Positions 52,208 to 58,681 of a stretch of 64,000 nt of DNA are shown here, in pieces. The DNA is from Chthonomonadaceae bacterium. Lineage in GTDB: Bacteria; Armatimonadota; Chthonomonadetes; Chthonomonadales; Chthonomonadaceae. The notes under the pieces were generated by a model. That model was not told where the DNA came from. It made no database searches and saw only the letters and a list, made by a program, of their open reading frames with translations. How positions within the stretch are numbered: the stretch's first letter is position 1; every line of letters starts with the position of its first letter. Where the stretch lies: assembly GCA_027459665.1 (NCBI GenBank), contig DAIDHN010000014.1, positions 1 to 64,000 on the forward strand, given 5' to 3'. A program made the translations under genes and the position numbers.

Positions 52208-52387
52208 CAACAACTCCCCGCAAACAGTAATTGCTGCATCTTTACACGTTCACTCGCTGGTTTCCTTCATAACCAAAACCAAGAAACATCTTATGCGTAT
52301 CTGTTTTGAAAAAATAGTTCAACCGGCTGGCTAAAACGCTTTTTTAACCGCAAGTACTACATATAGACCATCAGAAAAGGAGACTGC

Positions 52388-53011
52388 ATGAAACTGAATT
52401 TTTTGAAGCCGACAACACTTTTCGCTTTGCTTTCTTTTGCACCCGGCTGCATGCAGCACAGCAGCAAACCAGAGCCGGATTTGTTTGTTGCCTGCATAGA
52501 TATTTCAGGTTCTACTATTCCCATGCGTGGTGCGCAGCTCAGTCAGCTGGATACAATTGCCAACTGGGCAACTATCAGCGGTGCGCCTCTGGAATTATGG
52601 ACTTTCGACAAAAAACCGCTGCAGGTATGGGGGCCGCGAGTGCCTGTGGGCAGCGCCAGCATTGCTGCCATCAAGGCGAAAACGCTCTCCACTGCAGGAA
52701 AGGTGCATCACATTACCCGTCCGGCTCTGCTCTTGAGTACTCTGCTCAACGACCCTGGTTTCAAGCGATCGCACCGGCCAATTATTGTGCTGCTTACTGA
52801 TGGAGATTCAGAGGTGCCTTCAGACAGCAAACTGTTTCTGCACTCTGCCGCAGCGCTCGCGGCAACGCGTCATCTGCAATTTGCCATACTTGATATTTCT
52901 GCCCAAAACCGCTCAACCTGGCAGAAGGCTTTTTCTGCATGCCCAGCAAGCCATTTTCATGAGGCTGGCATTACCGAGGCAGAGGCAGAGCTTGCCAGCC
53001 TTTTGCATTAA
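52388..53011 (+). CDS. Lipoprotein with von Willebrand factor A domain
   Basis: This 207-residue protein has a lipobox FAPGC (Cys21) and a vWA domain covering the rest. The metal-ion adhesion site reads D38-I-S40-G-S42, with the later Asp in LLTDGDSE (about 138). Such domains bind protein partners through Mg. It would sit on the outer face of the inner membrane or in the outer membrane. SD AAGGAG lies six bases before the ATG. The gene after it starts 16 bases on and encodes a coiled-coil membrane protein; the pair forms a two-gene unit bounded by opposing genes. The system is not one I recognise. Confidence 0.78.
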   Translation: MKLNFLKPTTLFALLSFAPGCMQHSSKPEPDLFVACIDISGSTIPMRGAQLSQLDTIANWATISGAPLELWTFDKKPLQVWGPRVPVGSASIAAIKAKTLSTAGKVHHITRPALLLSTLLNDPGFKRSHRPIIVLLTDGDSEVPSDSKLFLHSAAALAATRHLQFAILDISAQNRSTWQKAFSACPASHFHEAGITEAEAELASLLH

Positions 53012-53027
53012 GTAAGGAGAATAAACA

Positions 53028-55277
53028 TTGTCACCAGATAATCAAAACCTGAGTACAAATAATATCAGCCCAATGCAAGCAGACTCTACCGCTTTTGATC
53101 GTGCTGTGGTGGTCAGCAGCAATGCAGCTGAAACGTCGCAAAACAGAGGCAGCAGCCTGCAAAAAAAGCAGGAAGCCGCTGCTTCAGATACCCAGAGCAC
53201 CAGTGAAGCAATGGAGCGGTTTTACCGAAGAAATCCCTCTTTGCCTTATGCGCCTGCCAGTGCATCACCAAATGTACGCAACTCCGGCGGGCAAACTTAC
53301 TATTATAACCACCCCATTCCACTCAACCTGAAACTGAACTATACAGAACTGATTGAACTGCTCAAAAAGAGGCGGCCAGATATTGCTGCTGCCATTCAGG
53401 ATGGCATCGACCGTATTGAAAACGCACGAACTACGCTCGCACAGGTGCAGCAGGAAGTTGAACAGTCTCAGCAGCAGCACAATGAAGACGCACGATTGGC
53501 AAACAGAAAAATTGATGAGGAAATAGAACACTTTCAGCAGAAGCTTGATACAATTGAACAGCAGCAGAACAAAATTATTATCGACATGCGTGATGATTTT
53601 TACAATCTGCGTGCTAAACTGGCTGAATACAGAAGCCTGCTTGGTGAAGAGGCAGAGCATATCTACTTCAAAGACCGCCCAGACCTGTTTCCAGAGCCTG
53701 CACTGCCGGCTCCAACCCAGCAAACGCCTGGTACCTCGCTCATACCTGCCAGCAATACTGCAATACATAAAAACATGGGCAGCGCCATAGCGTCGGTCAG
53801 CCGTGCCTGGGGTAACTTGTACCACACTCTTTCCAGTTCCCGCGCTCAAAATCAGCCGGCTAATCAAACAGAGCCGCCTGTCTATAAACCTGTCAAAGTA
53901 GACTACCCTCTGGAGGAAGCCAGAGAGCAGGTTCGCTCTCTGCAGGCTATTGCTGCTTGTGAGGGTCTGCCCTCGCACAGCAAAACAAGCCTCTCATGGT
54001 CAGAAAAATTCATGGTGTTTCTGGCGCTTCTTGCCTGTGGCAGTATTTTTGGTTTCAGCATCGGCATTATTACCGGCGTCATCGATCCGCAAATCATTGC
54101 ACTGCGCCCTATGCTTGAGGCCGCTCCTCTCTCGGCAGCACTGGCTCTGGGCATCGGCTTGTTCTGGGTACTGGGTGAAGCCGTTCAACGCTGGGCAGAG
54201 CATGCCTCTGAAAATTACCATACAGCAAACCTTGCCTCAATACGCAGCGACCCAAAACGCATGGGAGAATGCACAAAAAAAACTTTTACAGTCCATATTG
54301 TGCTGCTTGCATCTGTAACATGTCTGTTTGTTCTCATTGAGGCTGCTGTAGAGTGGAACGGCATTGTGCACTATTTCAATCAGCACATGCTCAACCAAAT
54401 GCTGGCCACAGGGCAAGTTCATCAGGTATCTGCCGGCCTCAGTACTGGGGCAATGCTGGGCATGTCGCTGATGGCTAGCGTGCCTTTTCTGGTGATGCAC
54501 ATGGTAGAAGGATGGACTCTTGCATACGGCCAGACTATTCAAAACCACCTGATCAATCTGCAGGAAAACGACATGCATGCCAGGTCGGAGGAGATACACA
54601 AGAAACGTCTTGAAGAAGCAAGGGCGCAGCGCGAGAAGTGGGAAATGTCTCAAAATGATAGTACTGCTGTTGAACATGTGCAATCTCAACTGGAAACAGC
54701 ACAAATCACTGGCAGTATCAATCTGCACACAAACGAACAATCGCAAACTGCCTCTGATGATGCTTCGCCGCCTGCCTATCATAACAGCAGCACCCCATTA
54801 CTCATGTCAGACTACAGTTCGAATCCAGTCATCGATGCGATAGTACCGCCGGGAGATGAGGCAGCGGACGATTCACTGCCTAGTTCACAGCCGGCATCTG
54901 ATACTGCAGACACTGCATCGCTGACTGATGCAAAACCTTCTACCGAATTGCAAATTCGCTCACACATTTCATCACTGCAAGAGAAGGTGCAGGGCAAGTA
55001 CCAGGCACTGCAGGAACAGAGAGAATACTCAAAAGTAAGAACAGCACATTACTACAATCGCATACGTCAGTTGGAAGAAGAGAGAAGACTGGAGCATTCT
55101 ATCATTCAGCAGGAGGGACGCCAGCGAATAGATGATGCGTACCGCAATATGGAAGGTGCTGCCGTAGAGTTTGACGCGCTAATCAAACAGAAGAGAAAAG
55201 ATATTCTGCGCACTCTGCATGGAGGCATTTTGTCTCGCCTGCGCAAATGGCTGTATGACCACAGTCTTACCGAGTAA
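53028..55277 (+). CDS. Unknown coiled-coil protein with four membrane segments, partner of vWA lipoprotein
   Basis: This 749-residue protein begins at TTG with AAGGAGA about eight bases upstream. Layout: disordered polar N-terminus (1-90), coiled coil (about 105-205, many Gln and Glu), a Pro-rich linker (220-310), four hydrophobic helices in two pairs (about 326-350, 364-385, 420-440, 474-495), a short charged coil (505-545), a disordered Ser/Thr/Pro region (550-640) and a long terminal coiled coil (644-735). No enzyme motif is visible: no Walker A, GTPase or kinase residues. The four helices suggest a membrane scaffold with both long coils on the same side. The 3' end overlaps mqnB by 11 bases. 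Confidence 0.75.
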   Translation: MSPDNQNLSTNNISPMQADSTAFDRAVVVSSNAAETSQNRGSSLQKKQEAAASDTQSTSEAMERFYRRNPSLPYAPASASPNVRNSGGQTYYYNHPIPLNLKLNYTELIELLKKRRPDIAAAIQDGIDRIENARTTLAQVQQEVEQSQQQHNEDARLANRKIDEEIEHFQQKLDTIEQQQNKIIIDMRDDFYNLRAKLAEYRSLLGEEAEHIYFKDRPDLFPEPALPAPTQQTPGTSLIPASNTAIHKNMGSAIASVSRAWGNLYHTLSSSRAQNQPANQTEPPVYKPVKVDYPLEEAREQVRSLQAIAACEGLPSHSKTSLSWSEKFMVFLALLACGSIFGFSIGIITGVIDPQIIALRPMLEAAPLSAALALGIGLFWVLGEAVQRWAEHASENYHTANLASIRSDPKRMGECTKKTFTVHIVLLASVTCLFVLIEAAVEWNGIVHYFNQHMLNQMLATGQVHQVSAGLSTGAMLGMSLMASVPFLVMHMVEGWTLAYGQTIQNHLINLQENDMHARSEEIHKKRLEEARAQREKWEMSQNDSTAVEHVQSQLETAQITGSINLHTNEQSQTASDDASPPAYHNSSTPLLMSDYSSNPVIDAIVPPGDEAADDSLPSSQPASDTADTASLTDAKPSTELQIRSHISSLQEKVQGKYQALQEQREYSKVRTAHYYNRIRQLEEERRLEHSIIQQEGRQRIDDAYRNMEGAAVEFDALIKQKRKDILRTLHGGILSRLRKWLYDHSLTE

Positions 55278-57534: not shown

Positions 57535-58674
57535 TTACTTTGCCGCCAGCGTGGCAGTATGCAATACGCCCTCCATCTGCCTGCGTATCACCTCGCGCAG
57601 CGTGTTGAGAGGCAGATATTCACCAATCAGGTTCTCCCGGTAATACCAATGCTGCCAGCCATTGCAAGAAGGCTTGCCCAGGCACTGCGCCCCTACCTTG
57701 TGAATAGAGCCGCGCAGATTGCCGCAAACCACAGTGCCGTCTTCCTGCACAACGGCTTCCAGCTCGGTATGCCCCAATTGCAGCCTGGCACCAGGCTTCA
57801 GCAAACCATGTTCCAGAAGCAAGCCAAAGGGTATGCGCAGCTGAGGCGCATCCAGCGGTGGAGGCGTAAACTCATCTGGCACTACTGGCATTTCTACTCT
57901 GGCAATTCGACGCTTTGCCAGGTCAACATACTCATTTTCACGCTCAATCCCCACCCACTTTCTGCGCATCCTCTCGGCTACCGCCCCAGTGGTGCCTGTG
58001 CCGAAAAATGGGTCGAGCACCACGTCCCCCGGATTGGTACATCCTCTCAAAATTCGATACAGCAGCGCTTCGGGCTTTTGCGTAGCATGCGCCTTGCGTC
58101 CCTCGGTGTCTTTCAAACGCTCCTCTCCGGTACAAAGAGGGAAATGCCAGTCGCTGCGCATTTGCAGGTCTTCATTGGCGGCTTTCAGCGCCTTGTAGTG
58201 AAAAGTGTACCGGCTTTGCCGTTCACTTTTTTTCGCCCAGATCATGGTTTCATGGGCATTGCAAAAACGGGTGCCGCGCATATTGGGCATGGGGTTCGAT
58301 TTGATCCACACCACGTCGTTCAGAATCCAGAAACCCAGGTCTTGCAGTATAGAACCGATACGAAAAATACAGTGGTACGAACCAATGACCCACAGAGTGC
58401 CGGTATCTTTCAGCACATGCCGACAGCCCTGCAGCCATTCTCTGGTAAAACGATCGTACTCGGCAAAACTGCCGAATCTGTCCCAGTTATCCTGCACGCC
58501 TTCTACATGAGTGAGGTTGGGGCGCCAAAGGTCTGAACGCAGCTGCAGGTTGTAGGGAGGGTCTGCAAAAATGAGGTCAACAGAACGGGCCGGAAGAGTA
58601 GGCAGTATCTCCCGGCAGTCACCCTGTAAAACCTGATTGAATTGAAAAGTATTGTTTTTGGTTCTTCGAGTCAT
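57535..58674 (-). CDS. ccrM: CcrM/HinfI-type adenine-N6 DNA methyltransferase with RAMA domain
   Basis: This 379-residue beta-class methyltransferase has catalytic FADPPYNLQL first and the S-adenosylmethionine motif DPFFGTGTTGA later. Its central stretch RGTRFCNAHETMIWA, LQMRSDWHFPLCTGEERLKD and KAHATQKPEALLYRIL closely follows Caulobacter CcrM, which methylates GANTC. The C-terminal 90 residues are the RAMA domain used by CcrM for DNA recognition. No restriction endonuclease is adjacent, so it is a solitary enzyme. Start at ATG 58674; TTG at 58680 is possible. No ribosome site is seen. Three GANTC sites lie right before the start. Confidence 0.92.
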   Translation of the reverse strand: MTRRTKNNTFQFNQVLQGDCREILPTLPARSVDLIFADPPYNLQLRSDLWRPNLTHVEGVQDNWDRFGSFAEYDRFTREWLQGCRHVLKDTGTLWVIGSYHCIFRIGSILQDLGFWILNDVVWIKSNPMPNMRGTRFCNAHETMIWAKKSERQSRYTFHYKALKAANEDLQMRSDWHFPLCTGEERLKDTEGRKAHATQKPEALLYRILRGCTNPGDVVLDPFFGTGTTGAVAERMRRKWVGIERENEYVDLAKRRIARVEMPVVPDEFTPPPLDAPQLRIPFGLLLEHGLLKPGARLQLGHTELEAVVQEDGTVVCGNLRGSIHKVGAQCLGKPSCNGWQHWYYRENLIGEYLPLNTLREVIRRQMEGVLHTATLAAK

Positions 58675-58681
58675 GAACAAT

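Follow-up and report, generated by a model that had tools for sequence, protein, structure and literature searches.

A gene pair in Armatimonadota encoding a predicted vWA lipoprotein and a four-helix membrane protein, a candidate two-component membrane complex

Two adjacent genes from a Chthonomonadaceae genome, one encoding a predicted vWA lipoprotein and the other a large membrane protein with four transmembrane (TM) helices, are inherited as a unit. They lie in the window, by which we mean the whole stretch of 64,000 nucleotides that was analysed, and their features are collected in Table 1. Two hypothetical proteins thereby become a defined unit that is conserved in the phylum. The vWA lipoprotein is likely to contact the membrane protein, and a sensing or scaffolding membrane complex was judged likelier than an enzyme. 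We see an even chance that the pair forms a complex of two components in the cytoplasmic membrane, in which the vWA domain would dock on residue E442 of its partner in a Mg-dependent manner and relay this to the cytoplasmic helices.

Table 1. Features of the gene pair, with positions in the window
Feature	Position	Strand	Evidence
vWA lipoprotein gene, 207 aa	52388..53011	+	ORF; alignments and conservation; AF2 fold, Foldseek
Signal peptide with C21; vWA domain with MIDAS D38, S40, S42, T110, D138	within 52388..53011	+	
Four-TM coiled-coil membrane protein gene, 749 aa, TTG start	53028..55277	+	ORF; relatives in phylum
N-terminal long helix, residues 117-204, coiled-coil-like	53376..53639	+	AF2 local pLDDT ~69-93; periodicity p<=5e-4
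Four-helix membrane core, residues 325-494	54000..54509	+	Hydropathy; homologous core profiles A1/A4
Codon of E442, acid at predicted outer end of TM3	54351..54353	+	Column count; alignment
C-terminal long helix, residues 637-730	54936..55217	+	AF2 local pLDDT mostly 70-91; periodicity p=0.07

Inheritance of the two genes as a unit

The ORF table agrees exactly with the sequence-only reading of this DNA in the coordinates of both ORFs, the 16 nt that separate the vWA stop from the membrane-protein start, and the TTG start codon. The TTG is further supported as the start because the starts of relatives align to this position, and a Shine-Dalgarno-like AGGAG/GGAG is found 5' of both ORFs. The same reading described the pair as bounded by opposing genes, which is borne out: the upstream neighbour is divergent, on the opposite strand, with its start at 52213, and the downstream neighbour is a convergent PNP-family gene on the opposite strand, which ends at 55267 and overlaps the pair by 11 nt. 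The further statement that the pair stands alone is true of this locus but not of the system, of which the genome also carries a three-gene paralogue. A promoter and terminator scan gave results near chance level. Elsewhere in the window (57535-58680) there is a gene for an N6/N4 DNA methylase with a RAMA domain, which may be an orphan CcrM-like regulator.

Among 61 genomes searched, strong matches of both proteins were confined to one family (f1), the named members of which are Chthonomonadaceae. A profile of the membrane core and a vWA profile were searched separately against 291 Armatimonadota genomes, of which 36 were matched by the core profile and 37 by the vWA profile. Comparison of the two match tables indicates that most of the confident core matches have a vWA match within about 2 kb. 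The pair is absent from most of the Armatimonadota genomes searched, and it is therefore not generally essential; its conservation in other genera excludes chance as the origin of the two ORFs. A match in Corallococcus (L126) was the only one outside the expected relatives, and was taken as chance, the contig having no similar pair.

The 42 core ORFs in the fetched loci were scored for a vWA neighbour after local inspection. The vWA gene is beside the core gene or next but one in 40/42 loci (one of these inferred across a contig break), and it is on the same strand within 400 nt in 38/42. One ORF lies between the two genes in L033, the pair is split by contig ends in a fitting orientation in L037/L038, and L116 and L134 have a core gene with no vWA gene beside it. 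The vWA gene mostly comes first, and many pairs overlap by 4 nt. Five loci have the core gene first, which implies that the adjacency has survived rearrangement.

The trees of the vWA proteins and the cores agree in most groupings, including the trio clade described below. In a mirror-tree comparison the two sets of distances correlate with r = 0.86 (maximum of 0.25 in 1000 label shuffles), a congruence that is partly shared species history and that speaks for one unit rather than for contact. The proposal of a dedicated two-gene unit is thus well supported: the genes are adjacent in both orders, often overlap by 4 nt and have trees that are congruent. The partners also co-occur in related genomes, as the sequence-only reading needed them to. 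It is most improbable that these are two unrelated envelope genes that merely happen to be adjacent. A small distance between the genes would by itself be no proof of a unit, but the adjacency extends across many genera and both orders with congruent trees, and the co-occurrence of vWA and membrane protein refutes chance neighbours. No description of a vWA/four-helix pair was found, and none of the papers searched links DUF2135 or Chthonomonas with von Willebrand.

Features of the two proteins

The 207-residue protein is a vWA domain by its fold and its complete MIDAS, despite the absence of a family-library match. The AF2 model has a vWA fold with the alternating strand-helix order (pLDDT 73, pTM 0.74). 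Foldseek with this model returns integrin I domains, Rpn10 and vWF A1 with E values of about 1e-5 to 1e-3, and a search of the PDB with the family profile returns the vWA domain of the magnesium-chelatase BchD (E=0.0016). Against Pfam the window protein has no match at E<=1, while a homologue in L105 clears the PF00092 cut-off (24.3 vs 23.8 bits); the Pfam VWA profile is a detection aid and not a defining trait of the vWA superfamily. The MIDAS residues D38, S40 and S42 had been assigned correctly from the sequence, and the remaining ligands, T110 and D138, were found too, so that all five are present. Over 39 sequences, T110 and D138 are retained in all 39, D38 in 38, S40 in 32 and S42 in 30.

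The cysteine C21 is preceded by a hydrophobic signal, and the putative lipobox, APGC, has an atypical Ala at −3; those of close relatives, ISGC and ITGC, are cleaner. The N-terminal anchor of the vWA homologues is a lipobox in some and a single TM helix in others, and this alternation most simply places the vWA domain on the outer face. An outside location is also indicated by the paralogous vWA proteins, whose N-terminus is rich in Arg and which have a single TM helix.

The 749-residue protein has hydrophobic segments at residues ~325-352, 363-387, 417-444 and 473-494, as judged by hydropathy. The loop TM2-TM3 contains four K/R and the loop TM3-TM4 none, from which both termini are predicted to be inside. 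The AF2 model has a pTM of 0.31 with low-confidence stretches between the long helices, and for this reason only its local helix calls were used. In addition to the N- and C-terminal long helices, these include a third, residues 473-561, which is continuous from TM4. A periodicity of ~3.6 residues is strong in the N-terminal helix, borderline in the C-terminal helix and absent from the TM4 extension. The sequence-only reading of two long coiled coils and four membrane helices therefore stands for the membrane helices, and for the coiled coils is a fair simplification of three predicted helices of uneven periodicity. From the positive-inside pattern and the lack of a signal peptide, a cytoplasmic location is predicted for the coiled coils, which would therefore not occupy the envelope space. 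An envelope scaffold or load-bearing device, as the sequence-only reading suggested, would be a speculative role for the pair.

When both proteins were scanned against Pfam, NCBIfam, PHROGs and PADLOC, the only matches were weak ones to coiled coils or attributable to chance, with none above cut-off, and the membrane protein gave nothing significant against the PDB or by Foldseek. A match of the large protein to a known unrelated family, which had been suggested as a way to overturn the original reading, did not therefore appear; the family is outside all the family databases and solved structures searched. In the phylum as a whole, only a few residues of the core are invariant, namely glycines, P486 and W496.

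Position 442 is E in 19/39 homologues and D in 17/39 (E/D in 36/39), within a motif E/D-x-x-G-I/L in which G445 is G in 35 of the 39. A functional acid is suggested by the retention of charge, with exchange of E and D, in an otherwise fast-evolving protein; its placement at the outer end of TM3 depends on TM ends that come from hydropathy and the model with pTM 0.31. Its conservation could instead serve folding, ion binding or another partner. E438 was considered as a second universal acid and rejected, being acidic in 23/39 only.

An ion-driven motor of the MotA/TolQ/ExbB/ZorA type, with the TM3 acid as ion site and the vWA protein in the MotB/TolR role, could account for the long cytoplasmic helices that accompany the four TM helices and for the conserved TM3 acid; the paralogous trio also has a partner with one TM helix and an outer domain. 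We consider it improbable. The MotA_ExbB profile (PF01618) matches neither the membrane protein nor its homologues, and Foldseek finds ExbB/TolQ at E ~1 only, from the low-confidence model. The acid is at the outer end of TM3 and not mid-membrane, no Asp is conserved in the TM helices of the partners, and in the window the partner is predicted to be a lipoprotein, with no TM helix retained.

Paralogues and mobile copies

The same genome has both versions of the system, the pair on contig C14 and a trio on C16. The trio is composed of a membrane-anchored vWA protein, a four-TM protein of ~520 aa and a DUF2135-type membrane protein of ~370-415 aa; the DUF2135 Pfam cut-off is passed in L105. The vWA protein and the four-TM core of the trio are homologous to those of the pair and are encoded in the same order, but the trio has a TM anchor instead of a lipobox, shorter cytoplasmic helices and the third, DUF2135 gene. 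The window pair belongs to a group with mostly lipoprotein vWA genes, and the trio forms the other clade.

In the trio of this genome (G000:C16, L030 8501-11972) the four-TM protein has 524 aa and the third gene encodes a DUF2135-like multi-TM protein; the trio is divergent from genes that by eye are BadF-like and Hsp70-like. In genomes of family f29, a lipoprotein of ~322-350 aa is found near the trio at three loci (L105 6893-7942, L106 1134-2186 and L119 2275-3243) and joins the iterated vWA profile, either as an additional vWA component or through an artefact of the profile. Another locus (L130 5274-8538) may hold a divergent trio, in which a 392-aa protein is encoded together with a vWA lipoprotein and a second vWA protein (PF00092, 30.5 bits). 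One genome (G008) has a solo vWA lipoprotein homologue (contig C11, L026 1420-2031) whose MIDAS is degraded and which lacks a four-TM partner in its vicinity; the same genome carries an intact pair on another contig.

Distant copies of the pair are found in integrative elements or beside defence genes, which makes a role in conflict or transfer a live rival. The pair would then be an accessory device from mobile or defence islands (for surface exclusion, as a conjugation accessory, or for membrane-targeting abortive infection) that later became resident in Chthonomonadaceae. In two genomes of family f14 (L112 4764-9515 and L109 5590-10377) it is downstream of genes for a TrwB-like coupling ATPase, a Replic_Relax-type protein and a zinc-ribbon protein; one of the two genomes also has an integrase close by. 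This combination appears as a recurring integrative-element module in f14. Other copies are near an integrase and ArdC, or near a serine recombinase. Single copies are near a CARF-HEPN Csx1/Csm6-like gene (G013), near PDC-S26 and LmuB-like genes (G042), and near a type I restriction HsdR and an IrrE-type protein (G126).

The mobile copies make the pair a candidate for conflict or transfer biology. We consider the accessory-device reading of the pair unlikely. The window pair, like the copies of several relatives, has an ordinary chromosomal setting (in the window, genes for a PNP-family nucleosidase, pth and a glycosidase), and a common chromosomal neighbourhood beside a sigma-factor-like gene is seen in three relatives. 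PADLOC models match neither protein, and no match was found in plasmids by tblastn or in viral contigs by profile scans. Neighbours also vary from locus to locus, and the evidence from context is anecdotal.

Proposed docking and comparison with known systems

For the two-component membrane complex, docking is the simplest reading, because the partner of the membrane protein presents a metal site of a type to which acidic ligands bind. The vWA subunit would be held on the outer face of the cytoplasmic membrane by its N-terminal anchor, and its MIDAS-bound Mg2+ would be completed by E442 at the outer end of TM3. The docked subunit may then stabilise or gate the four-helix protein, and the long cytoplasmic helices may oligomerise or relay the docked or undocked state inward. 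The output of such a complex might be a channel, a signal or a scaffold. E442 and the MIDAS thus offer a one-residue test of vWA-metal docking controlling a bacterial membrane protein. More tentatively, all the versions may represent one undescribed bacterial system, in which an exported vWA protein would dock through its MIDAS metal on an acid of its partner and relay this to coiled coils, with a resident pair, a resident trio, and versions in mobile elements or defence islands.

MIDAS-bearing vWA domains are typical partners of MoxR (PMC7159879), which would suggest a MoxR-type chaperone system with the vWA protein as co-chaperone. The pair resembles the MoxR-vWA systems, including BatA/aerotolerance, in its vWA domain, and Foldseek lists a Bacteroides aerotolerance vWA protein (4jdu). 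It differs in having a four-TM coiled-coil partner and no linked MoxR: at the inspected loci no gene next to the pair was recognised as MoxR-like, and the MoxR-type genes of its own genome are on other contigs (C21, C28, C37 and C42). The vWA protein is predicted to be exported and so would be beyond the reach of a cytosolic AAA ATPase. The chaperone reading is largely refuted, and we regard it as very improbable. MotA/TolQ/ExbB and ZorA are like the membrane protein in being multi-TM proteins with cytoplasmic helices, but it has no profile or significant fold match to them.

A geometry resembling that proposed for the two-component complex is known from animals, where the MIDAS of alpha2delta docks on CaV2.2 through D122, an aspartate in an extracellular loop, and where the D122A mutation leaves only very weak co-immunoprecipitation of alpha2delta-1 (PMC6231325). 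The window protein is by contrast a single domain of 207 aa without Cache, and no channel homology was found for its membrane partner, with no channel profile above cut-off. The resemblance is therefore geometric only: in both, an outer vWA domain that is lipid-anchored, in the bacterial pair by prediction, carries a MIDAS, which in animals docks on an acid outside the membrane helix (PMC6231325) and in the bacterial pair may do so on E442.
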